Notes: generated from the letters alone by a model not told the origin. DNA of 40,414 bases from Candidatus Effluviviaceae Genus V sp. (GCA_014728125.1 WJMD01000018.1:1-40414), one strand, 5' to 3'. Shown: positions 10,433 to 29,174, numbered from the stretch's first letter. Numbers and translations: made by a program.

Positions 10433-11722
10433 ATGGCAGCAAAGGGCGCCTTCAATCCGTACGAGATGGCTCGCGCCCAGTTCGACCGGATCGCAGATAT
10501 GATCGAGCTGGACGAAGGCGCACGCGCATTTCTGCGCACTCCGATGAGAGAATACCACTTCACGATCCCCGTCCATATGGACGACGGCAGTGTCCAGGTC
10601 TTCCAGGGTTTCAGGTGCCAGCACAATGATGCCCGGGGTCCGGGCAAGGGCGGTATCCGGTTCCACCCACAGGAGACGATCGATACGGTTCGCGCTCTGT
10701 CCATGTGGATGACATGGAAGTGCGCGGTCGTCGACATCCCGCTCGGGGGCAGCAAGGGCGGCGTCATCTGCGACCCGCACAACCTGAGCGCCCGCGAGCA
10801 GGAGGCCATCTGCCGCGGGTTCGTTCGTGCTCTCGCGCGGAACGTCGGTCCTGTCGCCGACGTCCCGGCGCCGGACGTCATGACGAGTGCACAGCACATG
10901 CTCTGGATGCTGGACGAGTATGAGCAGATCGAGGGCGGTCACTACCCCGGTCTCATCACCGGGAAGCCGGTCGGGATGGGTGGTTCGCTGGGCAGGACGG
11001 AGGCGACCGGTTACGGTGTCGTCTACACGCTGCGAGAGGCCCTGAAGGAGCTCAACATCCGTCCCAGCGACACGACGGCAAGCGTCCAGGGCTTCGGGAA
11101 CGTCGCCCAGTACGCCATCGAGCTCTACACGCAGATAGGCGGCACGGTCGTCTGCGTCTCCTGCTGGGACCAGAACGACCAGTGCGCTTATGCCTTCAGG
11201 AAGCCCGAGGGCATCGACCTCGAGGAACTCAGGAGCATCACGGACCGGTTCGGCGGCATCAACAGGGCCGAGGCCGAGTCGAAGGGCTACGAGGTCATCG
11301 GCGGCGAAGAGTGGATCGACCAGGATGTCGATGTGCTGATGCCCTGCGCTCTGGAGAACTCGATCACGGGTGAGAACGTCGGCAGGATCAGCGACCGCGT
11401 CAAGATCATCGCCGAGGGCGCCAACGGTCCGACGACGCCAGAGGCCGACAACGCCATCCACGAGCGCGGGATCCATGCGATCCCCGACTTTCTCGCCAAC
11501 GCCGGGGGCGTGACCTGCAGCTACTTCGAGCAGGTCCAGAGCAACATGAACTACTTCTGGGAGAAGGACGAGGTCCTCGGCAAGCTCGACGTCAAAATGA
11601 CCTCGGCCTATCACGCCGTGAGCGATCTCGCGCGGAAGCAGAAGATCTACATGCGCGACGCGGCGTACGTCGTCGCGATCAACAGAGTGGCACAGGCCTG
11701 CCGCGACCGCGGCTGGATCTGA
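10433..11722 (+). CDS. gdhA: Glutamate dehydrogenase (Glu/Leu/Phe/Val dehydrogenase family)
   Basis: The 429-residue cytoplasmic enzyme fits the hexameric glutamate dehydrogenases that interconvert glutamate with 2-oxoglutarate and ammonia. Visible features are the substrate-site lysines Lys72 (GPGKGGIRFH), Lys96 (MTWKCAVVDIP) and Lys108 (GGSKGG), catalytic Asp148 (VPAPDV), the GGSLGRTEATGYG segment (183-195), and the Rossmann dinucleotide loop GFGNVAQ (220-226). CGGAGGG sits 5-6 nt before the ATG. Cofactor preference cannot be read with confidence. A strong hairpin (11731-11757) separates it from the next gene, so the two ATP-grasp genes may be only partly co-transcribed with it. The family call is firm; it could prefer another branched or aromatic amino acid, but the length and motifs favour glutamate. 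Confidence 0.93.
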   Translation: MAAKGAFNPYEMARAQFDRIADMIELDEGARAFLRTPMREYHFTIPVHMDDGSVQVFQGFRCQHNDARGPGKGGIRFHPQETIDTVRALSMWMTWKCAVVDIPLGGSKGGVICDPHNLSAREQEAICRGFVRALARNVGPVADVPAPDVMTSAQHMLWMLDEYEQIEGGHYPGLITGKPVGMGGSLGRTEATGYGVVYTLREALKELNIRPSDTTASVQGFGNVAQYAIELYTQIGGTVVCVSCWDQNDQCAYAFRKPEGIDLEELRSITDRFGGINRAEAESKGYEVIGGEEWIDQDVDVLMPCALENSITGENVGRISDRVKIIAEGANGPTTPEADNAIHERGIHAIPDFLANAGGVTCSYFEQVQSNMNYFWEKDEVLGKLDVKMTSAYHAVSDLARKQKIYMRDAAYVVAINRVAQACRDRGWI

Positions 11723-11757: not shown

Positions 11758-11782
11758 CTTCTCCAGCACGAGCGAGGCCTTG

Positions 11783-13531
11783 ATGGTACCGGTTGAGGCG
11801 TCGCAGCTCCCGGAGTTCGGCCGCGAGTTCCTCGACGCGGACAGCACCTTCACACGCATCGGCGATGGACTCATCGGCGGCAAGGCCGCCGGTCTCCTGC
11901 GCGCGCAGAGGGACATTCTCTCGCGACTCGGCGAAGACGAGTCCTCCGGGTTCGACATCGCCGTGCCGACGCTGACGGTCATCGCCACCGGCGTCTTCGA
12001 TAGCTTCATGGAGCGCAACGACCTCTACGACATCGCTCTTTCGGACCGAGACGACGAGGCGATCGCCAGGGCCTTCCAGAGCACCGAGTTCCCCGCCGAG
12101 TTCGTCGGCGATCTCCGTTCGCTCATCTCGGACGTTCACCGGCCGCTGGCCGTCCGCTCGTCCAGCCTCCTCGAGGACGCGCTCGACCATCCGTTCGCCG
12201 GCGTCTACGGCACCAAGATGATCCCCAACAACCAGGCCGACACCGACACCCGGTTCCACCGCTTCGTCGAGGCGATCAAGTTCGTCTATGCCTCGACGTT
12301 CTTCGCTGAACCGAAGAGCTACATGGGCACCATCGACCGTGACATCCGTGAGGAGAAGATGGCGGTCATCGTGCAGGAGATCGTCGGTGAGAGGTGGAAC
12401 AGCCGCTTCTACCCGGCCATAAGCGGCGTGGGGCGCTCCCACAACTTCTACCCCACCGGACGGTCGGAGCCGTCGGATGGCGTCGTCAACCTGGCGCTCG
12501 GTCTCGGCAAGGAGATCGTCGACGGCGGCATCACCTGGACGTACTCGCCCGCCCACCCGAAGGCGCCTCCTCCGTACGCCGGGGTCGGAGATCTCATGAA
12601 GAACACGCAGACCGGGTTCTGGGCTGTCAACATGGGAGCGGCTCCTCCCCACGACCCCATCCGTGAAACGGAGTACCTCGTCCGCGGCACGCTCGACGAC
12701 GCCACGTCCGACGGAAGCCTCACGACGCTCTGCTCAACCTACGATCCGAACTCCGAACGTATGAGGCCCGGGTTTCGCAAGGACGGGGCGAAGGTGCTGG
12801 ACTTCGCGCCGATCCTCACGCTGGACACACTGCCGCTGAACACGCTGGTGCGCAGGCTCATCGAGCTGACCAGGGAGGCGCTCGGAGGCGAGGTCGAGAT
12901 CGAGTTCGCTGTCGCACTCGACCCGCTCGGGCGGAAGCGGCCCAGGTTCGGGTTTCTCCAGGCCCGGCCCATGATGGTCTCGCTCGACGAGGTCTCCGTG
13001 ACTGATGAGGACCTCGTGAACGAGGCGGCGCTCGTCGCCTCGCGGAACGTCCTGGGGAACGGCGAGCGGAACGACATCCAAGACATCATCTACGCGAGGC
13101 CCGACGTCTTCGAGGCGAAGCACACGCCGAGGATCGCGAGGGACATCGACGAGATCAACCGGGCGCTCATCAAGGACGGGAAACGCTCGCTGCTCATCGG
13201 CTTCGGCAGGTGGGGCAGCTCGGATCCGTGGCTCGGCATACCGGTCGACTGGGGCCAGGTAAGCAGCGCTCGTGTCATCGTCGAGGCGACGATGCCGGGC
13301 ATGAACCCGGACCTCAGTCAGGGGTCGCACTTCTTCCACAATCTCCTGAGCTTCCGCGTGCTCTATCTGTCGGTTCCGCGCGCCCACGCCGCGGGCATTC
13401 GTTGGGACGTCCTTGACGGACTGCCCGCGACATCGGAGACTGACCTCGTGCGCCACGTGCGGCTGGAGAAACCGCTCAGGGTCCGCGTCGACGGACACTC
13501 AGGCAGAGGGGTCATCGACCATGTCGGATGA
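11783..13531 (+). CDS. PPDK_N-type (PEP synthase-like) ATP-grasp protein without dikinase domains
   Basis: The 582-residue protein resembles the N-terminal nucleotide-binding half of pyruvate phosphate dikinase/PEP synthase. It has the IGGKAAG loop (31-37), LAVRSSSLLEDA (122-133), a FAGVYGT segment and the late ATP-grasp motif FLQARPMM (391-398). It lacks the phosphohistidine swivel domain and the PEP/pyruvate barrel, so it cannot run the full dikinase reaction. In their place is a C-terminal module with GFGRWGSSDPWLG (473-485) and SQGSHFF (512-518) that recurs in the next gene. ATG 11783 follows GAGG; an in-frame TTG sits just before it. The end overlaps the next start by 11 nt, implying coupled translation. 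The biochemical role is unknown; ATP binding or phosphotransfer is inferred. Automated pipelines may call it PEP synthase, which the missing domains contradict. Confidence 0.8.
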   Translation: MVPVEASQLPEFGREFLDADSTFTRIGDGLIGGKAAGLLRAQRDILSRLGEDESSGFDIAVPTLTVIATGVFDSFMERNDLYDIALSDRDDEAIARAFQSTEFPAEFVGDLRSLISDVHRPLAVRSSSLLEDALDHPFAGVYGTKMIPNNQADTDTRFHRFVEAIKFVYASTFFAEPKSYMGTIDRDIREEKMAVIVQEIVGERWNSRFYPAISGVGRSHNFYPTGRSEPSDGVVNLALGLGKEIVDGGITWTYSPAHPKAPPPYAGVGDLMKNTQTGFWAVNMGAAPPHDPIRETEYLVRGTLDDATSDGSLTTLCSTYDPNSERMRPGFRKDGAKVLDFAPILTLDTLPLNTLVRRLIELTREALGGEVEIEFAVALDPLGRKRPRFGFLQARPMMVSLDEVSVTDEDLVNEAALVASRNVLGNGERNDIQDIIYARPDVFEAKHTPRIARDIDEINRALIKDGKRSLLIGFGRWGSSDPWLGIPVDWGQVSSARVIVEATMPGMNPDLSQGSHFFHNLLSFRVLYLSVPRAHAAGIRWDVLDGLPATSETDLVRHVRLEKPLRVRVDGHSGRGVIDHVG

Positions 13532-16500
13532 GAAACGCAGCGAAGCTCCGGACGTCCTGCTGACCTCGCTCCAGGAGCGCGCGAAGGAACTCAACTGTCT
13601 CTATCACGTCGAGGAGGCGCTCCAGCTCACTGAGAGAGACCTCGATGTGGCCCTGCGGGGTGTCCTCAAGGCGGTTCCCGCCGGGTGGCAGTATCCCGAC
13701 ATCTGTAAGGCCGTCATCACGCTCGAGGGAGCCGTCTACCGTCTCGAGGACTTCGAGACCACACCGTGGGTGCTTCGCGGCGACATCACGGTCCAGGGGA
13801 AAAAGGCCGGACGCATCGAGGTTTTCTACACAGAGCGGCGGCCGCAGGAGAACGTCGGACCTTTCCTCAAGGAAGAGGTCCGGCTGATCAGGACCATCGC
13901 CGATCTGATCGGACATGCGCTTCTCAGGCAGCGTCTCCAGGAGCTTCAGAAGGACTGGGAGGCGATGCGCGGCGGCGCGCCCGGCGAACAACAGGAGGCC
14001 TGGCGCAGTCCGCTGCATCTTCTGAGGGAATCGGACCGCGGCCTCTACCTCCGCATCGCGCACAAGATGCTCAATCACCTCTGCCAGATCGGTGTGGGGG
14101 AAGCTCAGGAGGTGATGGGCTCGGGGAGCCGGGAAGAGGAAGGGACCTCGCCGGGCGAGGTCAACGTCCCCGCCTGCCGTGTCGCCCAGGACCGCGATTA
14201 CCTTCTGTCCGACAAGCCGTTCGAGCTCGCGAGCAAGCACCTGAGCGAGCGCGAGATCCTCACGCGTGTACAGAACTGGATGCTCGAGGACAAGGCCTCG
14301 AGCTTCCTCCGCGTACTCAACAACCCGCGCTCGCCGCTGCCCGAGATCGTCGATGCGCTCCGGCGGTTCCAGTACGGCATCCAGGACAAGTCACTGCTCA
14401 GGTCGTCCACCCTCAAGACTCTCCGCGTGTCCCTGACGCAGCGGCTCCTGACGGAGCAGGTCGACTTCGTCCGGGTCGCCAAGGAACATGTGCAGATCGA
14501 GGACTTCGCGGAACTGGCCGGCCGCATGATCATCCCCGCGGGAAGCCACGGACGACTGGGAGGCAAGAGCGCCGGCATGCTGCTGGCGCACAGGATCCTG
14601 AAGTCGAGCGCCTCACCCGAACAGCCCGTCGGCGAGATCAGCATTCCCCGTACCTGGTATCTGCCGTCCGACGGGCTGCTGGATTTCATCGGACACAACG
14701 ATCTGCAGGACGTGATCGAACAGAAGTTCAAGGAGATCGACGAGGTCCGTCAGCAGTACCCGGACATCATCAGACTGTTCAAGAACTCGACCTTCCCCAC
14801 GCGGATGATGAACGGCCTGTCGGTCGCCCTCGACGACTTCGGGGATGTGCCGCTCATCATCAGGAGCTCGAGCCTTCTGGAGGACCGTCTCGGCACGGCG
14901 TTCTCCGGAAAGTACAAGAGCCTCTTCCTGGCGAACACCGGCACGAAGTCCGAGCGACTGCGTGCGGTCGCCGACGCCATCTCGGAGGTCTATGCGTCGA
15001 CCTTCGGACCCGACCCCATCGAGTACCGAAGGGAGCGCGGTCTGCTCGAGTTCAATGAGGAAATGGGGATTCTGATCCAGGAGGTCGTCGGCCGCCGCGT
15101 AGGGAAGTACTTCTTCCCCTCCTTCGCCGGTGTCGCCTTCTCGAACAGCGAGTTCCGGTGGTCGCCCAGGATCGACCGGGAGGACGGACTCATCCGGATC
15201 GTCCCGGGACTCGGAACGCGGGCGGTCGACAGGCTCGGGGACGACTATCCGGTACTTCTCGTTCCCGGGAAGCCCGATCTGCGGGCCAACGTGGCCGTCG
15301 ACGAGATCGTCCGCTACTCCCCGAGCTGGATCGACGTCATCAACCTCGAGACGGGGACTCTCGAGTCACGCCGCCTCGACGAGATTCTGAAGGAGGTCGG
15401 CTCCGACTACCCGGCGGCCGACCGGGTATTCTCTGTGCTCGACGGCGACATGCTCAGGAAGGCGCCGCCGAAGGTGCTCTTCAACCCGGATGAACAGGAC
15501 TACGTCGCCACGTTCGACGCGCTGGCAAAGGAGACGGAGTTCGTCTCGGAGCTCAGGAACATCCTCGAGCTTCTCGAACGGGAACTGGGCACCCCGGTCG
15601 ACATCGAGTTCGCCCACGACGGAGAGAGGTTCCACCTGCTCCAGTGCCGGCCGCAGAGCATGGGTGAACAGGAGGGACCGGCACCGATACCGAAGGACGT
15701 ATCGAGATCGGACATCGTCTTCACTGCCGATCGCCACGTGTCGAACGGCTGGATCCCCGACATCACGCACATCGTCTACGTCGATCCCGAGGCATACTCT
15801 TCACTCCCGGACGAGGCAGCGATGCGGGAGGTCGCCAAGGCGGTCGGCCGTCTCAATCAGGTGCTTCCTTCGCGCCGCTTCATCCTGCTCGGGCCCGGCA
15901 GATGGGGCAGCCGGGGCGATGTGCGACTCGGTGTGAGCGTGACATACGCCGACATCTCGAACACGGCGATGCTCATCGAGATCGCGAGACGGAAGGGAGA
16001 GTACGTGCCCGACCTTTCCTTCGGCACGCACTTCTTCCAGGACCTCGTCGAGTCGCGCATACGCTATCTGCCTCTCTACCCGGACGAGGAGGGAGTTGTG
16101 TTCAACGAGGTCTTCCTCAGGAAGGCTGAGAACCTCCTCCCCTCCATGCTTCCGAAGTTCGAACACCTCGCTGACACGCTTCACATCATCGACGTGCCGG
16201 CGAACACGGAAGGGCGCATCCTGCGCGTCCTGATGAACGCCGACCTCGATGAGGCGCTCGCGATGATCGACGACCCCTCCGAAGCGCCCGTGCGTCGCCG
16301 GGAGACACACGAGGCGCCGCAGCGGCCACCGGTCCAGTACTGGCAGTGGCGACTGCGCATGGCCCAGCGAATCGCCTCAGACCTCGATCCGGAGCGGTTC
16401 GGCGTCGAAGCGCTGTACGTCTTCGGCAGCACCAAGAACGCGACGGCGGGACCCGCCAGCGATATCGACCTCATCGTTCATCACAGAGGAACCGACGAAC

Positions 16501-16703
16501 AGCGCAAGGAGCTCACGTCCTGGCTCGAGGGGTGGGGACGATGCCTGTCCGAGCTCAACTTCCTCCGTACGGGCTACCGCACCGAGAACCTCCTCGATGT
16601 GCACGTCGTGACAGACGATGATATCGAGAAGAAGACGAGCTACGCGGCGAAGATCGGGGCAGTCACTGACGCGGCCCGGGAGCTCCCCATCGGGGAAGCG
16701 TAG
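13521..16703 (+). CDS. GAF-like / PPDK_N ATP-grasp / nucleotidyltransferase fusion protein
   Basis: The 1,060-residue soluble protein starts at ATG 13521, with AGAGGGG about 9 nt upstream, inside the end of the preceding gene. Residues about 15-150 look like a GAF sensor of the type found in histidine kinases (KELNCLYHVEEA, then GWQYPDICKA, then GPFLKEE). A helical linker (about 160-335) leads to a PPDK_N-like ATP-grasp region with LGGKSAG (346-352), IIRSSSLLEDR (446-456) and HLLQCRP (705-711). Then comes the module shared with the previous gene: LGPGRWGS (790-797) and SFGTHFF (833-839). The C-terminus holds a polymerase-beta-type nucleotidyltransferase motif: Gly969-Ser970, ten residues, then Asp981-Ile-Asp983. 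No phosphohistidine or PEP-barrel domain is present. A sensory enzyme that transfers phosphate or a nucleotide is the natural inference; substrate and partner are unknown. Confidence 0.82.
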   Translation: MSDEKRSEAPDVLLTSLQERAKELNCLYHVEEALQLTERDLDVALRGVLKAVPAGWQYPDICKAVITLEGAVYRLEDFETTPWVLRGDITVQGKKAGRIEVFYTERRPQENVGPFLKEEVRLIRTIADLIGHALLRQRLQELQKDWEAMRGGAPGEQQEAWRSPLHLLRESDRGLYLRIAHKMLNHLCQIGVGEAQEVMGSGSREEEGTSPGEVNVPACRVAQDRDYLLSDKPFELASKHLSEREILTRVQNWMLEDKASSFLRVLNNPRSPLPEIVDALRRFQYGIQDKSLLRSSTLKTLRVSLTQRLLTEQVDFVRVAKEHVQIEDFAELAGRMIIPAGSHGRLGGKSAGMLLAHRILKSSASPEQPVGEISIPRTWYLPSDGLLDFIGHNDLQDVIEQKFKEIDEVRQQYPDIIRLFKNSTFPTRMMNGLSVALDDFGDVPLIIRSSSLLEDRLGTAFSGKYKSLFLANTGTKSERLRAVADAISEVYASTFGPDPIEYRRERGLLEFNEEMGILIQEVVGRRVGKYFFPSFAGVAFSNSEFRWSPRIDREDGLIRIVPGLGTRAVDRLGDDYPVLLVPGKPDLRANVAVDEIVRYSPSWIDVINLETGTLESRRLDEILKEVGSDYPAADRVFSVLDGDMLRKAPPKVLFNPDEQDYVATFDALAKETEFVSELRNILELLERELGTPVDIEFAHDGERFHLLQCRPQSMGEQEGPAPIPKDVSRSDIVFTADRHVSNGWIPDITHIVYVDPEAYSSLPDEAAMREVAKAVGRLNQVLPSRRFILLGPGRWGSRGDVRLGVSVTYADISNTAMLIEIARRKGEYVPDLSFGTHFFQDLVESRIRYLPLYPDEEGVVFNEVFLRKAENLLPSMLPKFEHLADTLHIIDVPANTEGRILRVLMNADLDEALAMIDDPSEAPVRRRETHEAPQRPPVQYWQWRLRMAQRIASDLDPERFGVEALYVFGSTKNATAGPASDIDLIVHHRGTDEQRKELTSWLEGWGRCLSELNFLRTGYRTENLLDVHVVTDDDIEKKTSYAAKIGAVTDAARELPIGEA

Positions 16704-16785: not shown

Positions 16786-17658
16786 CTACTCCCCCGCGGC
16801 GGGAACGAGCGCGCGGGTTGCGCTTTCCGGCTGCAGCGGGTCGAACCTGACAAGCGCGAGTTCCGGACCGTCGTGCGCCCCTCCGAGAAGATGCGTTCGT
16901 CCGATCACGTCGCGCCAGTGTCCCGTCAGCCGGGCGGACTCATGCACGTGTCCGTGCAGCGTCACGGCGGGCTGTCTCCGCTCTATGAACCGTCTGATCG
17001 CGATGCTGCCGACGTGCACGTCGAGCGGGACATGGTCGACCATCCGACCGTCGAGCGCCGCCCGGTCCAGGCACGTCTCGTAGGGTGGCGAGTGAAAAAG
17101 GAACACGGCGTTGGAGAGTTCGTCTTCTCCCGCGAGTCGGTTGAGATCCTCAATGATCGTGGCGTACCTGACCCTGCGCGCGTCGACCGGAACGGTACGC
17201 CGTCCCTCCTCGGGAGAGACACTGCCGGGGTCGACGAATCGCGAGACGTCATAGCGTTCCCAATCCTTGAGCAGGAACGGCGTCGGCGGGACGTTCGCGT
17301 ACCCGTAGACCGGCACGCCGCGGGACATCACCCTGCGCTCGTGGATGTACCGCCACAGTCCGTCGGCCCCCGCTGAGAGAACGGCCGACTCCTCGAATCT
17401 CGGGTCGTCGTTGCCGAGGATCAGAAGGACATCCGGATATGCGTCGCCCATCTGCTCCCTGAGCCGTCGGAAACCCGGAGCCAGAACACCGTTGACGAAG
17501 TCCGCATGGGAGGGATCGAGCGTCAGGGACGCATACATGTGCGGCAGCAGATCTCCGCCGAGAAGCACGGCATCGGGCGACTCCTGTTCTACGTGGCGCC
17601 AGAGCGACCGGTACCGGCCCAGCTGACCATGAAGATCGGACGTGAAGAACCAGAGCAC
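16786..17658 (-). CDS. Calcineurin-like metallophosphoesterase
   Basis: The 290-residue protein carries the metallophosphoesterase signature blocks in order: Asp and His in FTSDLHGQ (near residue 8), GGDLL, GNDD in place of the usual GNHD, HSPP, and the C-terminal GHVHES. These bind two metal ions and hydrolyse phosphomono- or diesters. GTG at 17658 is chosen as start because AGGAGG lies 5 nt upstream and the motif block begins at once; an ATG at 17709 would add 17 unlike residues. No signal peptide or membrane segment is seen, so it is probably cytoplasmic. It follows the MATE gene by 66 nt and may be read from its own weak promoter at 17699-17728. The substrate cannot be told; the family also includes RNA, nucleotide and cyclic-nucleotide phosphodiesterases. 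Confidence 0.85.
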   Translation of the reverse strand: MLWFFTSDLHGQLGRYRSLWRHVEQESPDAVLLGGDLLPHMYASLTLDPSHADFVNGVLAPGFRRLREQMGDAYPDVLLILGNDDPRFEESAVLSAGADGLWRYIHERRVMSRGVPVYGYANVPPTPFLLKDWERYDVSRFVDPGSVSPEEGRRTVPVDARRVRYATIIEDLNRLAGEDELSNAVFLFHSPPYETCLDRAALDGRMVDHVPLDVHVGSIAIRRFIERRQPAVTLHGHVHESARLTGHWRDVIGRTHLLGGAHDGPELALVRFDPLQPESATRALVPAAGE

Positions 17659-17698
17659 ACCGTCCTCCTGCCGTGGAACGTGTCGGCACCCAACTGAA

Positions 17699-17728
17699 GG
17701 TCTACACACGCTCGACCCGTCCGGTCAA
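17699..17728 (-). promoter_or_regulatory. Possible promoter of the phosphoesterase gene
   Basis: On the minus strand TTGACC (17728-17723), 18-nt spacer, TAGACC (17704-17699). The -35 overlaps the stop of the MATE gene. The phosphoesterase may instead be read through from upstream. Confidence 0.35.
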
Positions 17729-20489: not shown

Positions 20490-21797
20490 TCAGTCGACCA
20501 GCGGCTCGTACTCCCGTGAGCGCTGCTCCTCGATGGCGTGCTCCTCCGCCTCCCGGCGGCGGCGCTGCGCCTCCTTCTGCGCCTCGACCGCCTCGATGGC
20601 GGCCATCAGACGGTCGGCCTTGTCGGCCTGGTCGGGGAAGGTCTGCGCGACCCGGAGCGAGGCGAGCGCGTCCTCGGTGCGCTCCAGCTGGATGGCGCAG
20701 TAGCCCATCATCAGATAGGAGCGCGAGTAGGTGCTGTCGGCGGCCGCCGCGCTCTCGTAGGCTTCGTACGCGGGGGCGTAGTCGCTTCGCATGAAATGGA
20801 GGTCGCCCAGCAGCGACCAGAGCCGCGCCGTCGGGTCCTTCTCGATGGCGAGCTCGAGTGCCGCCTCGGCCTCGCGGAACTGATACGACGCCAGATGCGC
20901 CGAGGCGAGGCGCTCGAGCTCGTCGGTCGTCGCGCTGTCACCCATCGCCTCTTCGTACGTGTCTCCGGCCATGGCCGGAACACCGATCGCCAGGAAGATG
21001 TCGCCGAGCTGCATCCGCTGCCGGCTTGTGAGCGGATCGAGGTAGTCGGAGACCATGAGCGCGACCGCCGCGTTCTCGTAGTCCCCGGCGCGCACATGAT
21101 ACTGGAAGGCGACCTCCCAGGGCTCGGGCTCGCTCCCGAAGCCCGCGAGCATCTCGTCGAGCGCGGCCGAGCCCTTCTCGACCTCCTCAAGCTCAAGGTA
21201 GGCCATGACGAGCGCCCGGTGCCACTCGAGCGTCGGCTCGCCGTGTTCCCCGGAGACAAGTTCCTCGAGGATCGGGATCGCCTCCTCGGAGCGCTCACTC
21301 ATGACGAGCGACGCGGCGCGATAGAAGAGCACGCTTGGTTGCCTGAGCTCGCTTCGCGCGTAGCCCTCCTCGAGCGCCGCGGCGGCCAGCTCGTAGCGGC
21401 CGAGGTTGTAGGCCAGCTCCCCGAGGCTGATCCACGCCTGAGCGTAGCGCGGCTCGAGCTCGGTGGTCCGCCGGTAGTCCTCGAGCGCCCGCTCGGTGTC
21501 ACCGGCCAGCGCGTGGCTGACGGCCGAATGGAACCTGACGAGGTAGTGGTCGCGGTCCGGGTTCTCGGCGACGAACTCGCGGAGGAGCGACGCCGCGTCG
21601 TCGACGTTTCCCTCGTCGCGGAGCGTCTGCGCCTCAAAGAGAACGAGCCGCGTGTCCGCCGGGAGATCTGAGAAGTCCTCGATCGGGCGCTCGGCATCGT
21701 CCTGTGCGAAAAGCGGCGACGCTCCGGTGAGCAGCAGCGCGAGCGCGGCACAGAGGAGGACACGGGGTGTCGGCGGGTGGGACGTCTGCATGGTCAC
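20490..21797 (-). CDS. TPR-repeat protein of the TonB operon
   Basis: The 435-residue protein has a signal peptide (hydrophobic core LLCAALALLLTGA, then FAQ) and at least eight tetratricopeptide-like helical pairs, the clearest being about 110-150 (YAQAWISLGELAYNLGRYELAAAALEEGY) and 310-350. The C-terminus is a charged coiled-coil stretch (AQKEAQRRRREAEEHAIEEQ). Periplasmic location is inferred. GTG 21797 lies one base after the tonB stop; ATG 21791 is an in-frame alternative. In Vibrio TonB2 clusters a TPR protein occupies the same last place, so a scaffolding or TonB-partner role is likely but not shown here. Confidence 0.85.
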   Translation of the reverse strand: MTMQTSHPPTPRVLLCAALALLLTGASPLFAQDDAERPIEDFSDLPADTRLVLFEAQTLRDEGNVDDAASLLREFVAENPDRDHYLVRFHSAVSHALAGDTERALEDYRRTTELEPRYAQAWISLGELAYNLGRYELAAAALEEGYARSELRQPSVLFYRAASLVMSERSEEAIPILEELVSGEHGEPTLEWHRALVMAYLELEEVEKGSAALDEMLAGFGSEPEPWEVAFQYHVRAGDYENAAVALMVSDYLDPLTSRQRMQLGDIFLAIGVPAMAGDTYEEAMGDSATTDELERLASAHLASYQFREAEAALELAIEKDPTARLWSLLGDLHFMRSDYAPAYEAYESAAAADSTYSRSYLMMGYCAIQLERTEDALASLRVAQTFPDQADKADRLMAAIEAVEAQKEAQRRRREAEEHAIEEQRSREYEPLVD

Positions 21798-21798
21798 G

Positions 21799-22416
21799 TC
21801 AGTCCAGGTTGAAGCGGATCGTGGTCACGACCCACGCGGTGACGGACTTTCCCTGCACCTCGCCCGGCCGGAAGGTCCACTGCGGCAGCGCGCGGCGCAC
21901 GGCGTCCTCGAAGATGCCCTTCGGCCTGGCGTCGAGGATCTCGACGCGCGCGACGGTGCCCTCGGTGGTCACGAGCATCTTGACCTGCACCGCGCCCTCG
22001 GTGCCGCGCTCTCGGGCCGCGTAGGGGTAGGCCGGGGGCACGCGCACGATCGGCTGCGGGGCCGAGTCGAGCTCGTACGACTCGAAGACGAAGTCATCCG
22101 GCGAACCGGTTCCGCCCATCTGCCCGAGGTTGACCCCGACACCGAGGTCGAACTCGCCGGGCGGACCGAGCTCGGGCTGGATGACGTCCGGCAGGAAGTC
22201 GAGCTTCTCCTGCTGCCGGGGTTTCTCCGGCTCCCGAATCTGCTCCTGCTGCGGCAGCGACGGCGCCTCGAGCTTGACGAGGCTCACGCCGATCGGGTTC
22301 GTGATGTCCTGCGGAACCTCGCGTTCCTGGAGCAGGAACGCGGCGAACGCGAAGATCAGCAGGTTGATACCGACCGCGGCGGGCGCGGCCCACTTGAGCC
22401 GGCGGGCGACCGCCAT
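21799..22416 (-). CDS. tonB: TonB energy-transducer protein (short TonB2-like)
   Basis: The 205-residue protein has one N-terminal membrane anchor (about 10-30), a short Pro/Gln/Glu-rich linker with repeats such as REPEKPRQQEK, and a TonB C-terminal domain (about 130-205) with the familiar pattern YPYAARERGTEGAVQVKM, then RRALPQWTFRPG. It would span the periplasm and pass inner-membrane proton energy to outer-membrane receptors. ATG 22416 shares a base with the exbD stop (TGATG), so translation is coupled. The short linker resembles TonB2 rather than E. coli TonB. A candidate receptor lies across the divergent region at 26352. Confidence 0.92.
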   Translation of the reverse strand: MAVARRLKWAAPAAVGINLLIFAFAAFLLQEREVPQDITNPIGVSLVKLEAPSLPQQEQIREPEKPRQQEKLDFLPDVIQPELGPPGEFDLGVGVNLGQMGGTGSPDDFVFESYELDSAPQPIVRVPPAYPYAARERGTEGAVQVKMLVTTEGTVARVEILDARPKGIFEDAVRRALPQWTFRPGEVQGKSVTAWVVTTIRFNLD

Positions 22417-22835
22417 CAGGACGCTTCTCCCCGCTTGGCAGCGAGGCTGACGGACTTGGCGCCGGCGAGACGGCACTGGTCCATGACCGTGATGACGGCC
22501 CCGGTCTCACTGCGCTTGTCAGCGACGACCACCACGCCGCTCTCCGGATCTTCTGCAAGCGCCCGCTCGATCTGGGCCCGGACGCTCCTGACGTCGATCC
22601 TCTTGCCCTCGAAGTAGACATCGCCCTCCGGCGTCACGCCGATCATGATGTTGGCGTGCTCCTGGAGCTCGGCCGTCGAGGCCGTCGCCTTCTGGACATC
22701 GATGCCGGCTTCCTTCACGAAGCTCGTGGTGACGGCGAAGAAGATGAGGAGCAGAAAGACCATGTCGATGAGAGGACCCATCGAGATGTCGACGCTCTTG
22801 TTGCCGCCCCGGAGGCTGTTCCGCACGTTGATCAT
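22416..22835 (-). CDS. exbD: ExbD/TolR biopolymer transport protein
   Basis: The 139-residue protein has a single membrane segment with the conserved proton-path aspartate (Asp24 in GPLIDMVFLLLIFF), followed by a periplasmic domain with the pattern EGKRIDVRSVRAQIERAL and GVVVVADKRSETGAVITVMD. It forms the motor with ExbB and TonB. ATG 22835 overlaps the exbB stop (ATGA); a longer in-frame extension to 22958 would be an Arg-rich stretch overlapping exbB and is rejected. Confidence 0.93.
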   Translation of the reverse strand: MINVRNSLRGGNKSVDISMGPLIDMVFLLLIFFAVTTSFVKEAGIDVQKATASTAELQEHANIMIGVTPEGDVYFEGKRIDVRSVRAQIERALAEDPESGVVVVADKRSETGAVITVMDQCRLAGAKSVSLAAKRGEAS

Positions 22836-23560
22836 GCGCCTTCCCCGCCCTCCGAGTAGGCGCCGGCGAGCGCGGGCACGGCCGTAAGCTCGGGTCGTCT
22901 CTCCGGCTCGCGGGCCGTGCAGACGTTCCCGAACCTGCGGACGTCGTGGTCGGCGCATCGTCTCCGTCTGATGATGCGCGACAGGATCGTCACGTCCTCC
23001 TCGAGCTGCGTTCTGAGCCGCGCGGCCTGGACGAGCAGCATGCCGGACAGCATCAGGCCCGGCACCGCGATCAGAAGCCCCGTCTCCGTGGTGATGAGCG
23101 CGATCGAGATGCCGTTGGCCATCGCGCCGGCGTTGCCGGTACCGAAGAGGGCGATGACCTGGAACGTCTCGATCATGCCGAGCACCGTACCGAGAAGTCC
23201 CATGAGCGGAGCGATCGAAACCAGCACCGTGATCATCGACAGGAAGCGACCGATTGACGGCTGCTGACGCATCGCCGACTCCTTAAGGACGCTGACGTCG
23301 ATCTTCGCGACGCCGCTTCGGTGCTCGAGGAAGTCCCGTACGAGCCGCGCGCGGAGGCCCTCACCGCCGGTCGGCGTCCCCTGGTTCCGAACGGCATCGA
23401 TCGCCTGGTCGATGGTGATGTCGTTCCGCCTGAGCGCGCGGAGAACGCTGAGACGCTCCAGCATGAACGTCCAGAGGATGATCGATGCGATCGAGAGCGG
23501 GATCATGACCCAGCCGCCCTGCAGGATGTACTCGTATGTCCTTGTGACAAGATGTTCCAT
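22832..23560 (-). CDS. exbB: ExbB/TolQ/MotA proton-channel protein
   Basis: The 242-residue protein has three membrane segments in the MotA/TolQ/ExbB arrangement: one near residues 15-33, and a pair around SMITVLVSIAPLMGLLGTVLGMIETF and TTETGLLIAVPGLMLSGMLL. These build the inner-membrane proton channel with ExbD. The C-terminal 50 residues are Arg/Glu-rich and lie beyond the usual family end. ATG 23560 shares one base with the upstream stop (TGATG), so translation is coupled. This is the second of two MotA/TolQ/ExbB genes in the operon, as in Vibrio TonB2 systems. Confidence 0.92.
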   Translation of the reverse strand: MEHLVTRTYEYILQGGWVMIPLSIASIILWTFMLERLSVLRALRRNDITIDQAIDAVRNQGTPTGGEGLRARLVRDFLEHRSGVAKIDVSVLKESAMRQQPSIGRFLSMITVLVSIAPLMGLLGTVLGMIETFQVIALFGTGNAGAMANGISIALITTETGLLIAVPGLMLSGMLLVQAARLRTQLEEDVTILSRIIRRRRCADHDVRRFGNVCTAREPERRPELTAVPALAGAYSEGGEGA

Positions 23561-25062
23561 CAGTTGGCCGTCCCTTCCTGGAGCCTGCCGACGACCTTCG
23601 CCACGAGCCTGTCCATCAACGTCTCACTGTCGAGCGAGGCATCCCCGGTAGCCTCGCCGCTCCGGACACGCTGCTTGAGAATGACGTTCGAAAGATGGAC
23701 CGCCTTCTCCTCCATCTCCCCGACAATGGCGTTCGCGCGCCTCGACAGGAACGTGTGAAAGAGCATGATCGGAATGGCCACGGCGAGACCGAGCTCGGTC
23801 GTCACCAGCGCCTCACTGATGCCGGCCGACATGAGCCTCGGATCGCCCGTACCGTAGAGCGTGATAACGCGGAACGTCTCGATCATGCCGGTCACCGTGC
23901 CGAGGAGACCGAGGAGCGGTGCGACCGCGCCGAAGACGGCCAGCACGGAGAGCCCGCGCTCGACGCGCGGCATCTCGCGCAGGATCGCTTCCTGCATCAC
24001 GCTCTCGAGCGTCTCGCGGTCCTCATCCCGCGCGGAGAGACCGTCGGCGATCACCTCGACGACGGGCATCTTCCGGTGCTCGTACCGCCTCACCACGGCC
24101 TCGGCGCCCTCCCAGTCGCCCCGCGCCGCGAGGCCCGTCACCTCACCCATGACCTTGTCGGTGTTCCCGTGGACCTTCTGGAGGAACTGGAACTTGTAGA
24201 TGATGAGAGCCACGGCGACGAGGCCGATGGCGAGGATCGGGAAGATGATCGGTCCGCCCTGGGCGATGTGCTCCCAGAACCCGACCTGCTGGGTGATCTG
24301 ACGGAGGGCCGCGCCGCCGGAGATGTCGACCGGCACGGTCGCGGACTCGCCGTTCATGTAGCCGCGGATCAGACGCGCCATACGGTTCGGCGGGAGAGCC
24401 GACAGCGCGAAGAGCTTCTGCTCGGCGGGAGTGTAGGTCAGGAATCCGACCTCCCCTCCCTCCTCCGTGCGGTAGAGGGCGGTGAACGGGCCGATCGTCA
24501 TGATGTCGCCCGTCTGCTCCTCCCCGTCGCGGCCGACGAAGAGCCCCTCACGCATGCCGACCTGTCCGGACATCTCGATCTCGGTGAAGAGCGCGTAGGC
24601 CATGCCCTTGACATCCTCGATGTCCGGGAAGTAGCCCTGGGCCAGCACCTGCTCGGCGACGTCGATCCGCTCGGGCCTGAGCGCGGTCAGCGGGGACTGC
24701 TCGAGGATGGCCTTGAGGTCGCGGGCCGCCAGACGGATGTTGCCGGAGATCTCCTTGTACTGAAGTCGCTCACGCTCCCACTTGTCTGCCAGCCTCTCGT
24801 GCCGCGTCTCGAGCCGGGCGACCGTCGTCTCGAGACCGGAGAGCTCCGCGTCGAGCTCACGCTCCTGCGCCTCGAGTTCCTGGACCTCGGCCAGCAGCGC
24901 TTCGCGGTCGTTAAGAATGGTCTCCTCGGAGGCCCTGGCCCGCTCGAGCGCGGCCTGACGGTCTTCCTCGGCCTTCCTGAACGCCTCCCGCACGTCCTGT
25001 GCGCCGGCCGTTCCGGCCACCAGAATCGCCGCGACCGCTGTCAGGATCATCAGCTTCTTCAT
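23560..25062 (-). CDS. TtpC-like ExbB/TolQ protein with periplasmic coiled-coil N-terminus
   Basis: The 500-residue protein has a signal peptide (MKKLMILTAVAAILVAGTAGA), a long predicted coiled coil (about 25-125, rich in Glu/Arg/Ala heptads), a globular region, and then the three-helix MotA/TolQ/ExbB domain (about 270-470) with VERGLSVLAVFGAVAPLLGL and TELGLAVAIPIMLF. This matches TtpC, the extra ExbB-like component of Vibrio TonB2 systems that is needed for energy transfer to some receptors. GGAGGG lies 7 nt before ATG 25062, and that ATG overlaps the DUF3450 stop (ATGA). The fusion of coiled coil and channel suggests that it bridges periplasm and motor; this is inferred from the known family. 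Confidence 0.9.
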   Translation of the reverse strand: MKKLMILTAVAAILVAGTAGAQDVREAFRKAEEDRQAALERARASEETILNDREALLAEVQELEAQERELDAELSGLETTVARLETRHERLADKWERERLQYKEISGNIRLAARDLKAILEQSPLTALRPERIDVAEQVLAQGYFPDIEDVKGMAYALFTEIEMSGQVGMREGLFVGRDGEEQTGDIMTIGPFTALYRTEEGGEVGFLTYTPAEQKLFALSALPPNRMARLIRGYMNGESATVPVDISGGAALRQITQQVGFWEHIAQGGPIIFPILAIGLVAVALIIYKFQFLQKVHGNTDKVMGEVTGLAARGDWEGAEAVVRRYEHRKMPVVEVIADGLSARDEDRETLESVMQEAILREMPRVERGLSVLAVFGAVAPLLGLLGTVTGMIETFRVITLYGTGDPRLMSAGISEALVTTELGLAVAIPIMLFHTFLSRRANAIVGEMEEKAVHLSNVILKQRVRSGEATGDASLDSETLMDRLVAKVVGRLQEGTAN

Positions 25063-25814
25063 GACTGCACCCTCCCGAGCGGCAGTGCTATCAGCTCGAT
25101 CGGACGCATGTTCGTGGCCATCTCGATCGTCTCCCTGATGGCGGAGTCGTACTTCCTTTCGAGCTCGACCCACTTCCGGGTGGCCGGATCGAACGTTCCC
25201 GAGCGCTCACCGTCGGGTGTCCGCCAGAAGAGCGAGACCCGGCCGACCTTGAGCACATCGGCAAAGACGGGCTCCCCGTCGACCTCCACCTCGGTCCGGT
25301 TGACCTCGACGGTGCTCCCGTACTCGGCCTCGATGCGCAGAGCCTCGAAGAGCAGTCGGACCTTCTCCGCGCCCGTTACGTCCGGCTTGGCAAGCATGTC
25401 CCGGAGATGGGTGATGCGCCGCTCGCGCTCCTGCGGAAGGAAGGGAAGGTCGCGCTCGACGAAGCTCTCGAACCGCGTCATGATGACGTTCATCGTGTCC
25501 TGGAGACTCGACTGGAGAAGGTGCGCCTCGTTCAGACGCTTCGTCAGCTCTCCTATGCTCTCCTCGAGCGCGGCCTGCTTCTTTCTCTCGACGACGATGC
25601 GCTCGCCCAGGTAGCGGACGTTCGCCTTGGCGGTCCTGTACCGCGCCTCGAGCTCCGCCTGCTCCGACGCCCAGGCGTCGCGCTCGCTCTGCGTCTGCTG
25701 CTCGATCCGGACAGTCTCCCCGGCCGTCTCACTGAGATCGCCGGAGTCCGACTGCGCCCACAGAAGCGTCGCCGTCAGCACCACGAGCAGGGCGATGATC
25801 GCGAGCCTGCCCAT
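25059..25814 (-). CDS. DUF3450 family periplasmic protein, first gene of the TonB2-like operon
   Basis: The 251-residue protein has a signal peptide (MGRLAIIALLVVLTATLLWAQ), a coiled-coil region (about 30-110, ETVRIEQQTQSERDAWASEQ onward) and a C-terminal domain ending in DSAIRETIEMATNMRPIELI, typical of DUF3450. Such proteins head TtpC-ExbB-ExbD-TonB-TPR clusters (Vibrio VC1548 position). The molecular role is unknown. ATG 25814 has GGAGGGAGG just upstream and is preferred over an in-frame extension to 25961, which would overlap the promoter. Translation of the next gene is coupled by a 4-nt overlap. Confidence 0.88.
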   Translation of the reverse strand: MGRLAIIALLVVLTATLLWAQSDSGDLSETAGETVRIEQQTQSERDAWASEQAELEARYRTAKANVRYLGERIVVERKKQAALEESIGELTKRLNEAHLLQSSLQDTMNVIMTRFESFVERDLPFLPQERERRITHLRDMLAKPDVTGAEKVRLLFEALRIEAEYGSTVEVNRTEVEVDGEPVFADVLKVGRVSLFWRTPDGERSGTFDPATRKWVELERKYDSAIRETIEMATNMRPIELIALPLGRVQS

Positions 25815-25932
25815 CCGTCCTCCCTCCTGAAGAAGTCTCCCCGACGCCCGCCGTGACCGGCGGCTCCGGTGCGCTTCCAGGTACCGCATGCGCGGCCCGT
25901 CGTTCGAACCCATTCTGTGCAAGGGGTACACA

Positions 25933-25961
25933 AGGCTAAGCGCACCCTCCCGGCCCCTCAA
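25933..25961 (-). promoter_or_regulatory. Predicted promoter of the DUF3450-TonB-TPR operon
   Basis: On the minus strand TTGAGG (25961-25956), 17-nt spacer, TAGCCT (25938-25933). The leader would be about 110 nt. It reads all six genes down to 20490. Confidence 0.6.
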
Positions 25962-26042
25962 GTTAGGTTTCTGTGAGCTTGCCGAACGAGGGCTTCGTGT
26001 GCCCGCCGTCGCTCCGAAACACCGTTCGCCCGTCCGAAGACG

Positions 26043-26090
26043 AATTCCTCACGCCGCCCTAAGAATTCACAAACACATGGGACGTAGACT
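26043..26090 (+). repeat. Direct repeat copy 1 upstream of the TonB-dependent receptor
   Basis: Aligned without gaps, 34 of 48 bases match copy 2, including 21 of 23 in the core 26044-26066 (ATTCCTCACG start, AGAAT end). The 3' end is TAGACT (26085-26090), a -10-like box. Confidence 0.65.
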
Positions 26091-26290
26091 CCGCTCCCGC
26101 TGAGATACGGAGGACTCGTGCAGCGGGGCGGAGACGGAGGGGACCGACGATTCTGCGGTCCCGGAGGTGGAGAGCGACAAGGAGGAACGTCGCGACGGGT
26201 TCCGGGTGTCGCGCGACTCCGGCGGACGATCGACCGGAGACGCCGCTTTGGGGGAAGCAGGCAACACCTGAACCGCACAACAGCGTCACC

Positions 26291-26338
26291 GATTCCTCAC
26301 GTCGCCCTCAGAATCCGTGAACACGGGGAGGCTACACT
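26291..26338 (+). repeat. Direct repeat copy 2, just before the TonB-dependent receptor
   Basis: It lies 248 nt from copy 1 and ends in TACACT (26333-26338), 14 nt before the chosen ATG at 26352. No good -35 is present; the conserved core sits where one would be. It may bind an activator or repressor. Confidence 0.65.
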
Positions 26339-26351
26339 CTTGCGCCAATGG

Positions 26352-29174
26352 ATGCGGAAGACCTCCCGCACGTGCGGGAGGGAAGAACGCGGAGCGGGCC
26401 GGACCACGGAACGTGGTCGCATCATCAGGGCGGCGATTATCTGTCTCATCATCTCATGTGCGGTTCCCGCTCTCGCTCACGGACAGACGGGAACGCTTCG
26501 CGGAACGGTGCGGGACGACGAGTCGGGGGAACGGCTCTCGGGAGCAAACCTGCTTCTCGTCGGGACGACGATCGGGATCTCGACCGACCTCGACGGCGAG
26601 TACCGCATCGAGGACATCCCGGCGGGAACCTACGAGGTGAGGGTCTCGTTCATGGGCTACGAGACGAAGGTCATCTCCGGCGTGCGCGTCGGGACGGACG
26701 AGACGGAGAAGTTCAACGTCGACCTCGTGCCGGCCGAGGGCATGGCGAGCTTCCGTATCGACGACTTCGTGGTATCCGCCGAACGCGTTCTCTCCACGCA
26801 GGTCGCCATCATCACGGAGCGTATGCGGGCCATCACCATCGGAGACGGCATCAGTGCCGAGCAGATAGCGAAGTCGCCCGACGGTACGAGCAGCGACGTC
26901 CTCAAGCGTGTGACGGGGCTCTCGGTCGTCGACAACAAGTTCGTCTTCGTGCGCGGCGTCACCGACCGCTACAACGTCACGTGGCTCGACGGCGTGCCCG
27001 CGACGAGCACGGACACGAGTTCCGACCGCCGGAGCTTCACATTCGACGTCGTTCCCGCTTCGCTTCTCGCGAACACGGTCGTCGTGAAGACCGCGTCGCC
27101 GGACCTTCCCGGTGACTTCACGGGCGGCCTCGTCCAGCTCAACACGCGTGACATTCCTCAGGAAGCGCAGCTCTCCGTGTCGGCGTCGAACGGGTTCGGG
27201 GACGACCTCGCCGCGGGAACGACGATGCGCTCCCAGGGCAGCGACACGGACTGGCTCGGCATGGACGACGGCATCCGCGAGCTGCCCGACAGTCTCGAAG
27301 GACGCGAGCTCGCCAGGGCGCTTCCGAACACGTGGGGACTCGTTGAGGACAACGCGCCCGTCAACGGCTCCTATTCCCTCTCCTACGGCAACAGATTCGA
27401 CATCGGCAGAGACGACGGGAGGAACGTCTTCGGCTTCCTCGTCGGCGGGAAGTACAGCTCGAGCTACAAGGAGTACGGCTACCTGAGACGTGTCGAGGAC
27501 GCCGGGGGCGGCGGTCTACCGAGGGAGGAGGTCGAGGGCACGGCCTACGGGTACAAGGTGCTCTGGTCCGGCATGGCCAACGTGAGCTACCAGCCGAGCA
27601 GGAACCACCGTCTGACGGCGCGCGCCCTCTACGTGCAGACGGCGAAGGAGGACCTGAAGCAGGGCACCGGGCAGGTCAGCCACGACGCCTCGGGCAACGG
27701 AGAGAAGTACCAGATCGAGTGGGACGAACGGTCCCGGTTCGACCTGCAGGTCGGCGGAACACACCGTTTCGGTCGCACTGGAGGCGCCCGTGTCGAATGG
27801 AAGGCCTTCGGTTCGGAGTCGCGCGCCTACGAGCCGGACCGACGCTACGCGACATACGACGAGAACGCCAACGGCTACATGCTGCTCAAGGCCGACGAAC
27901 GAACGTGGATCGACCTCATCGAGGACACGTCGGGCGGACGCGCCGACCTCACGTGGCCGGTGGGCGACGCCTCCATCAAGACGGGGGTCTTCGTCGAGCG
28001 GCGGAACCGCACCTACGAGGTCTCGGCCTTCTCGTCCGACCCCGCGCAGATCGACCTCTGGGACCCGGACAACTGGTGGATCACGGCCACACCGATCGAC
28101 TCCATCTTCGTCGATGACAACTTCCAGGAAGGCAAGCTCGGCTTCATCGAGAGGGACCGGTACTCCGGCGAGTACGAGGGCTGGCACGACATGGACGCGT
28201 GGTACGGGATGCTCGATCTTCCGTTCACGATCGACAAGTACGACTTCCGCGTGTCCGGGGGACTGAGGATCGAGTCGTCGAACCAGACCGTCGATTCATA
28301 TCCGGCGACCGGCGACACTATCCGGTCGGTCATCAACGAGACGGACCTGCTGCCGTCTATCAACTTCACGTACATGCCGACCGAGTGGATGAACCTCCGG
28401 CTTGCGTACTTCCGGTCGGTCAACAGGCCGGAGCTCCGCGAGATGGCGCCCGTCGTCTATCACGACCACAGCGCCGGCCAGAACTACCAGGGCAGCGCGA
28501 ACCTCGACCGCGCGGTCATCCAGAACTACGACGTCCGCCTGGAGGCGTTCCCGCAGGACGACGAGGTACTGGCCGTCAGCTACTTCTACAAGGACATCGA
28601 GAACGCGATCGAGGACAGTCTCCATCCCGACACCTCGTACAGGAACATCCGGCGCCCGTTCAACTCGGACAAAGGCCACAACCAGGGCTTCGAAGTCGAG
28701 GTCAGGAAGGACCTCGGCTTCCTTGCCGAGTTCCTGCGCGGGCTCTCAGTGACGGCCAACTACACGTTCGTCGATTCGGAGATCGAGTACATCCAGTCCA
28801 AGACCGACAGCACGGGCCAGATCATCCGGACGAGGAAGACACGCCCTCTCGTCGGGCAGTCGCCGTGGACCGTCAACGTCGGTCTTCTCTACACGATCGA
28901 GCGGTGGGGCACAACGCTCAACGTGCTCTACAACAAGTTCGGTGAGCGCCTGATGGCGGTCACCCTGAATGAAGGCGCGAACGTCTACGAGGCTGAACGC
29001 GAGGTGCTCGACGTCGCCGTCACACAGGAGCTCTGGGACTTCATGGAGCTCAAGCTCGCAGCCAGGAACCTGACCGGCTCGGACGTCGTCGAGACGCAGG
29101 GCGAGGCCCGGACCGATCATCTGGTCGACGAGCGGAACCCGGAGTACTCGGTCTCGCTCGGCTTGAAGTGGTGA
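26352..29174 (+). CDS. TonB-dependent outer-membrane receptor with CarboxypepD_reg-like N-terminal domain
   Basis: The 940-residue protein has a long signal peptide (hydrophobic IIRAAIICLIISCAVPALA, about 25-43) and a carboxypeptidase-regulatory-like beta domain (about 48-135, LRGTVRDDESGERLSGANLLLVG, GEYRIEDIPAGTYEV). A TonB-box-like IDDFVVSAE leads into a plug domain (about 145-270, with FVRGVTDRYNVTWLDGVP). The rest is a large beta-barrel ending YSVSLGLKW, with the terminal aromatic residue expected for BAM-dependent insertion. It resembles Oar/SusC-type receptors, but no SusD partner is present. The ATG at 26352 lacks a well-placed ribosome-binding site (GGGGAGG is over 20 nt away), so the start is less certain. 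The ligand is unknown. It faces the TonB operon, which probably powers it. Confidence 0.92.
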   Translation: MRKTSRTCGREERGAGRTTERGRIIRAAIICLIISCAVPALAHGQTGTLRGTVRDDESGERLSGANLLLVGTTIGISTDLDGEYRIEDIPAGTYEVRVSFMGYETKVISGVRVGTDETEKFNVDLVPAEGMASFRIDDFVVSAERVLSTQVAIITERMRAITIGDGISAEQIAKSPDGTSSDVLKRVTGLSVVDNKFVFVRGVTDRYNVTWLDGVPATSTDTSSDRRSFTFDVVPASLLANTVVVKTASPDLPGDFTGGLVQLNTRDIPQEAQLSVSASNGFGDDLAAGTTMRSQGSDTDWLGMDDGIRELPDSLEGRELARALPNTWGLVEDNAPVNGSYSLSYGNRFDIGRDDGRNVFGFLVGGKYSSSYKEYGYLRRVEDAGGGGLPREEVEGTAYGYKVLWSGMANVSYQPSRNHRLTARALYVQTAKEDLKQGTGQVSHDASGNGEKYQIEWDERSRFDLQVGGTHRFGRTGGARVEWKAFGSESRAYEPDRRYATYDENANGYMLLKADERTWIDLIEDTSGGRADLTWPVGDASIKTGVFVERRNRTYEVSAFSSDPAQIDLWDPDNWWITATPIDSIFVDDNFQEGKLGFIERDRYSGEYEGWHDMDAWYGMLDLPFTIDKYDFRVSGGLRIESSNQTVDSYPATGDTIRSVINETDLLPSINFTYMPTEWMNLRLAYFRSVNRPELREMAPVVYHDHSAGQNYQGSANLDRAVIQNYDVRLEAFPQDDEVLAVSYFYKDIENAIEDSLHPDTSYRNIRRPFNSDKGHNQGFEVEVRKDLGFLAEFLRGLSVTANYTFVDSEIEYIQSKTDSTGQIIRTRKTRPLVGQSPWTVNVGLLYTIERWGTTLNVLYNKFGERLMAVTLNEGANVYEAEREVLDVAVTQELWDFMELKLAARNLTGSDVVETQGEARTDHLVDERNPEYSVSLGLKW

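Follow-up and report, generated by a model that had tools for sequence, protein, structure and literature searches.

What does a protein do that joins a sensor-like domain, a PPDK_N ATP-grasp domain and a nucleotidyltransferase domain in one chain? The gene for such a protein, P0001, is located on the plus strand at positions 13521–16703 of the window (the whole 40,414-nucleotide stretch of DNA analysed), which belongs to a 2.5-Mb assembly that is 97.6% complete and whose nearest named relatives are Candidatus Eisenbacteria. It encodes 1,060 amino acids in a single stop-free frame that begins with an ATG at 13521 (preceded by AGAGGGG). The initial annotation had placed the three domains in this one frame and guessed at a sensor that controls a phosphotransfer or nucleotidylation reaction. 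The frame, Pfam matches and motifs agree with the domains and the guess remains a reasonable one, but a further domain within the chain (named GRWG here after its motif) and the genomic context, a cluster with a glutamate dehydrogenase (GDH) gene, had been overlooked.

Domain organization of P0001

P0001 is a member of a widespread bacterial orthologous family and not a single odd protein. Scanning 84,980 species genomes turns up no fewer than 563 relatives. The 80 best match P0001 from end to end, or very nearly so, at 49–72% identity, and almost every carrier is a metagenome-assembled genome. Full-length relatives at this level of identity are spread across about 20 phyla (19 named plus unassigned metagenome-assembled genomes), and the frame is therefore not a chance one. 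Their length is near-constant with few truncated exceptions, and the homologues have the same start site. Residues K349, R448, E696, Q708, H837, G969, S970, D981 and D983 are invariant in 79/79 sequences, and an AlphaFold2 model of the whole chain (79 sequences) has a pLDDT of 85.7 and a pTM of 0.70.

Comparison of P0001 with NCBIfam misses every equivalog cut-off, PHROG gives no match, no relatives were found in viral contigs, and PADLOC returns only weak matches to minimal nucleotidyltransferases. On the last three results a phage or defence origin was rejected. Searches by sequence for solved relatives yield none past weak ATP-grasp matches, and no account of the family or of a GDH–PPDK_N cluster was found among open PubMed Central papers; as far as tested the system is undescribed, as had been supposed.

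The putative GAF-like sensor domain occupies residues ~9–150 (13545–13970; plus strand, as for all P0001 domains). Pfam gives no match for this region in P0001 itself, but a sensor protein encoded in this genome has a homologous segment, part of which matches Pfam GAF with an E of 1.4e-3, under the curated cut-off. The assignment also derives from a Foldseek match to the GAF domain of PDE5A with a probability of 0.99 but a weak E of 0.26. With a PAS sensor protein from this genome the region shares 39% identity (E 1.6e-20), segments of this type recur among PAS histidine kinases from other genomes, and the sensor-domain motifs KELNCLY, PPGWQYPD and GPFLKEE recur in L003, L028 and L029. A helical linker domain (residues ~160–335; 13998–14525), delimited by the AlphaFold2 secondary structure, separates the sensor from the ATP-grasp domain and is kept in homologues without the GAF part.

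The ATP-grasp domain (residues ~340–720; 14538–15680) matches Pfam PPDK_N over residues 345–727 (E 6.7e-53), and Foldseek searches of the PDB with this part retrieve rifampin phosphotransferase (E 5e-14). The catalytic residues K349, R448, E696, Q708 and R710 are all present and conserved, and the annotated motifs are situated as claimed (LGGK349SAG, R448SSS and LLQ708CR710P, as well as G969-S970-x10-D981-I-D983 near the C-terminus), such that the predicted use of ATP through a PPDK-type ATP-grasp domain stands. The phosphohistidine swivel (PF00391, PEP-utilizer) has no match at the P0001 locus and the PEP/pyruvate TIM barrel no Pfam match in P0001, where only the nucleotidyltransferase lies past the GRWG domain; both parts had already been described as missing. 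An ordinary PEP synthase or rifampin phosphotransferase was considered and rejected because all NCBIfam scores are far under cut-off (rifampin phosphotransferase/PigC, 31.6 versus 999 bits and 29.5 versus 1300 bits).

The GRWG domain (residues ~728–920; 15702–16280) is positioned between the ATP-grasp and nucleotidyltransferase domains and has the invariant motifs GRWG (R794-W-G) and GTHFF (G835-T-H837-F-F). It is common to P0001, to the neighbouring P0002 and to a receiver-type paralogue, and R794, G796, G835, H837 and F838 are invariant in all of these types and in the other relatives. AlphaFold2 models residues 716–922 alone with high confidence (pLDDT 93.8, pTM 0.91), and Foldseek finds no fold match to the model in the PDB (best E 0.09, probability 0.13). 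Neither profile comparison nor fold matches GRWG to any of the known phosphoryl carriers, and the invariant H837 sits in a domain not recognisable as the PPDK His domain.

A highly diverged PPDK-type phosphohistidine swivel, which would make P0001 and P0002 VadK-like truncated dikinases and is compatible with any other reading of the locus, is a distinctly unlikely identity for GRWG. The strands and helices around H837 follow what we take to be the element order of the PPDK swivel, with the invariant His N-capping a helix after a G-T/S motif, and the domain directly follows the ATP-grasp, the swivel's usual place. Against this, hhalign gives a profile–profile probability under 3%, on a par with column-shuffled controls, none of the best 50 Foldseek matches to the pLDDT 94 model is a domain from PPDK, PEP synthase or enzyme I, and PF00391 is not matched; a hidden swivel was accordingly set aside as a minor rival. 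With the swivel absent and these tests negative, membership of the PPDK family fails on a defining feature.

The C-terminal domain (residues ~940–1060; 16338–16700) is a nucleotidyltransferase, as first annotated. Pfam NTP_transf_2 matches residues 958–1007 (E 1.4e-6, over its cut-off), Foldseek retrieves MNT antitoxin and AadA (probability 0.95–0.98), and the active-site motif G969-S970-x10-D981-x-D983 is accompanied by a third carboxylate, D1026, conserved in 77/77 sequences. The P0001 C-terminus thereby has the fold-level features of DNA-pol-beta-like nucleotidyltransferases, and the predicted ATP-grasp and nucleotidyltransferase active sites are both intact and strongly constrained. The domain scores 20.1 bits against a cut-off of 60 bits for the NCBIfam MntA type VII antitoxin, and in place of the HEPN partner of MntA the neighbours of P0001 are GDH, P0002 and a metallophosphoesterase.

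The P0001 gene cluster and its link to one GDH clade

The cluster begins with GDH (429 aa; 10433–11722, plus strand; Pfam ELFV_dehydrog, 5.4e-73, and ELFV_dehydrog_N), followed by P0002, P0001 and a convergent metallophosphoesterase gene. P0002 (583 aa; 11780–13531, plus strand) starts with either the TTG at 11780 or the ATG at 11783, overlaps P0001 by 11 bp and consists only of a PPDK_N ATP-grasp (Pfam 3e-32), in which the catalytic residues are kept, and a GRWG domain. The metallophosphoesterase (307 aa; 16786–17709, minus strand; Pfam Metallophos, 4.4e-10) has the motifs DxH, GGD, GND, H and GHxH, and solved relatives were not found by sequence. Neighbourhoods were counted in 80 loci, which are the best matches and not a random sample; clustering of neighbours on raw open frames is noisy in GC-rich DNA and was therefore redone with specific queries. 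A P0002 homologue adjoins the P0001 homologue in 63/76 evaluable loci, and the metallophosphoesterase is the convergent neighbour in 46/66 and missing from 20/66.

Three loci have a second P0001-like gene directly convergent downstream of P0001 (L074:11161-13530, G101:C99:14158-16203 and G140:C6:24206-26308), and in G101 and G140 the match stops before the nucleotidyltransferase. Elsewhere in the window, positions 20490–29174 contain minus-strand genes for a TPR protein and two MotA/TolQ/ExbB proteins, one of which includes DUF3450, followed by a plus-strand TonB-dependent receptor gene, probably a TonB-type energised uptake cluster.

The link between P0001 and GDH is strong. A same-strand GDH gene is immediately upstream in 65/69 evaluable loci from 18 named phyla, and two further loci have GDH about 5 kb away; where P0002 is missing, most loci have GDH directly against P0001, with a spacing of −4 to about −190 bp. 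All of the linked GDHs fall in one clade (66/66, SH-aLRT 98), within which those of different phyla are intermixed. Linked-clade GDHs have the private conserved residues Met150 (beside the PAPD motif), Trp245 and Tyr286 (both in insertions), which few or none of the unlinked GDHs compared possess; Tyr286 is invariant in this clade alone and is a candidate modification site. The window GDH is close to Pyrococcus-type GDH structures and keeps the substrate and catalytic Lys/Asp/Ser motifs, and the linked GDHs as a group retain such motifs of solved GDHs.

Inheritance follows the same pattern. An independent sample of 57 genomes from another phylum (that of G044, picked because G044 carries P0001) has 41 genomes with both P0001 and the linked-type GDH, two with P0001 only, none with this GDH only and 14 with neither (Fisher 1.6e-11), and 41 of the 54 P0001-type matches in the sample are within 4 kb of a linked-type GDH, many of the others being at contig ends. 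Genomes of the window's taxonomic family without P0001 are also without the linked GDH type. Four genomes (G129, G134, G136 and G143) have two full P0001–GDH pairs each, and G132 is a further two-pair case in which the second GDH is cut. Distances among P0001 and GDH sequences are correlated beyond permutation (r 0.45), and those of GDH and P0002 are not. The linked genes share single contigs in many independent assemblies, so that binning errors are no explanation. P0001 shares both its locus and its inheritance with one GDH clade, together with P0002 and often a convergent phosphoesterase.

Paralogues of the ATP-grasp/GRWG core

The PPDK_N/GRWG core is also present in a receiver-domain paralogue of 1,050 aa (G000:C14:6027-9072) that is convergent with a second GDH of about 456 aa, which is 34% identical to the window GDH and on a separate branch. 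This receiver-type paralogue is within 5 kb of a different-type GDH in most of the window's family, and the pairing also occurs in G073 and G085. In a receiver-type paralogue (L004:466-3618), residues 390–460, a helical segment before PPDK_N, match DUF5752, a possible lead on what that family is.

Among core relatives other than P0001 and P0002, GDH is within 5 kb in 16/26; those in L021 and L022, headed by a domain that we take to be KaiC-like (RecA-type), have no GDH beside them. As GDH accompanies both the P0001 type and these 16 relatives, it is the common denominator of the core. The sensor domains vary among homologues (GAF-like, receivers) and the core is constant. The architecture is one of exchangeable sensors in front of a core, with the nucleotidyltransferase an addition in the P0001 branch; P0002, the receiver type and some of the GDH-linked homologues do without the nucleotidyltransferase, which is thus not required for the common function.

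Possible functions and relation to known systems

Since P0001 lies nearly always directly beside one kind of GDH, it is probably a dedicated control device for that GDH. We propose with moderate confidence that a control module dedicated to GDH has P0001 as its sensor-gated enzyme, which switches GDH covalently through a chemistry that we infer as follows. The GAF-like domain would bind a metabolite signalling carbon or nitrogen state and gate the use of ATP; both P0001 and P0002 would bind ATP through their ATP-grasp domains. A phosphoryl group may pass to or through the GRWG domain, with the invariant H837 as candidate acceptor, and the nucleotidyltransferase may add AMP or another NMP to GDH or P0002; either this domain or the ATP-grasp–GRWG unit, or both, would place the nucleotidyl or phosphoryl group on GDH or P0002. 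The mark would switch GDH activity and the metallophosphoesterase may remove it, P0001 thereby having for GDH the role that GlnE has for glutamine synthetase.

GDH is a meeting point of carbon and nitrogen metabolism, and to our knowledge covalent control of ammonia assimilation in bacteria is described mainly for glutamine synthetase. If the proposal is true, a missing layer of control would connect one clade of GDH, in about 20 phyla, with a sensor that has two nucleotide-using active sites, a large family unnamed by any curated model would gain a testable role, and GRWG may represent a novel type of domain for handling phosphoryl or nucleotidyl groups. More tentatively, the locus may represent an unrecognised and widespread post-translational control of GDH composed of a sensor protein with an ATP-grasp, a new GRWG domain and an AMPylase, a second ATP-grasp/GRWG subunit, a phosphoesterase eraser, and a receiver paralogue controlling a second GDH within these cells.

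Three published systems make covalent control of GDH a reasonable model, short of proof. AMPylation by SelO lowers the activity of mammalian GDH (PMC12375108); VadK, a truncated PPDK, is a regulatory kinase that phosphorylates itself on a histidine and associates with enzymes of the methylcitrate cycle (PMC13400623); and HpeHI is a dikinase split across two proteins (PMC12167813). Several results count against the model. Gene linkage would also fit GDH as a co-regulated pathway partner, the nucleotidyltransferase is dispensable for the common function, GRWG resembles no known phosphoryl carrier, and the GDH–P0002 distance correlation does not exceed permutation; the phosphoesterase, the putative eraser, is transcribed from the opposite strand and lacking in nearly a third of evaluable loci (20/66).

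In a somewhat unlikely alternative, P0001 and P0002 are metabolic enzymes (kinase, ligase or nucleotidyltransferase) that use ATP on a small molecule near glutamate, 2-oxoglutarate or ammonia, and GDH catalyses a neighbouring step. Characterised PPDK_N enzymes act on small molecules, by phosphorylation or ligation (PEP synthase, rifampin phosphotransferase and HpeHI, PMC12167813), P0001 has PigC-like similarity, the antibiotic-modifying AadA is among the closest nucleotidyltransferase folds, and a constant length with a strongly conserved core suits an enzyme. The exchangeable N-terminal sensors indicate regulation instead, neither the swivel nor a substrate-binding domain known from dikinases is present, and no other conserved pathway genes stood out nearby in the noisy neighbour clustering. 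Regulation need not be covalent, and P0001 and P0002 might bind ATP and act as allosteric partners in an assembly with GDH, sensing energy charge and the GAF ligand. The link to GDH itself, the private residues of the linked clade as a possible interface, and the proposal that VadK acts by binding enzyme partners (PMC13400623) agree with this, but full conservation of both catalytic sites, including the chemistry-only D981, D983, D1026, E696 and R710, makes it improbable. It is highly improbable that the cluster is conserved through co-transfer of a selfish or defence-like set, with a nucleotidyltransferase that is an MntA-like antitoxin or defence related: the domain resembles MNT antitoxin and the PADLOC candidate PDC-S09, and the intermixing of phyla in the GDH tree is as horizontal transfer predicts, but no neighbouring HEPN toxin was recognised, viral contigs hold no relatives, and the constant partner is a housekeeping GDH in a single conserved locus order.

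Among the known systems closest to P0001, GlnE and GlnD are sensor-controlled nucleotidyltransferase regulators in nitrogen control, and against this general background P0001 would likewise be a nucleotidyltransferase-fold regulator devoted to an ammonia-assimilation enzyme, an analogy drawn, for P0001, from gene linkage. P0001 differs in having one MNT-like nucleotidyltransferase together with ATP-grasp, GRWG and GAF-like domains, in having GDH as its partner rather than glutamine synthetase or PII, and in giving no match to Pfam GlnE/GlnD. VadK (Rv1127c, PMC13400623) shares with P0001 a PPDK_N without a PEP barrel and a proposed control of metabolic enzymes by contact, but it keeps a recognisable His domain with His422 where P0001 and P0002 carry GRWG, and P0001 adds the GAF-like and nucleotidyltransferase domains. 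By analogy P0001 probably works like GlnE or VadK while being assigned to neither family. Rifampin phosphotransferase, PEP synthase and HpeHI (PMC12167813) have the same ATP-grasp fold and catalytic residues, whereas P0001 is without their swivel, rifampin-binding and PEP domains. The minimal nucleotidyltransferase fold with its GS-x(n)-DxD site is that of the MntA/MNT antitoxin adenylyltransferases and AadA, but in P0001 it shares a chain with an ATP-grasp domain, and the gene is linked to GDH, with neither HEPN toxin nor resistance cassette as partner.
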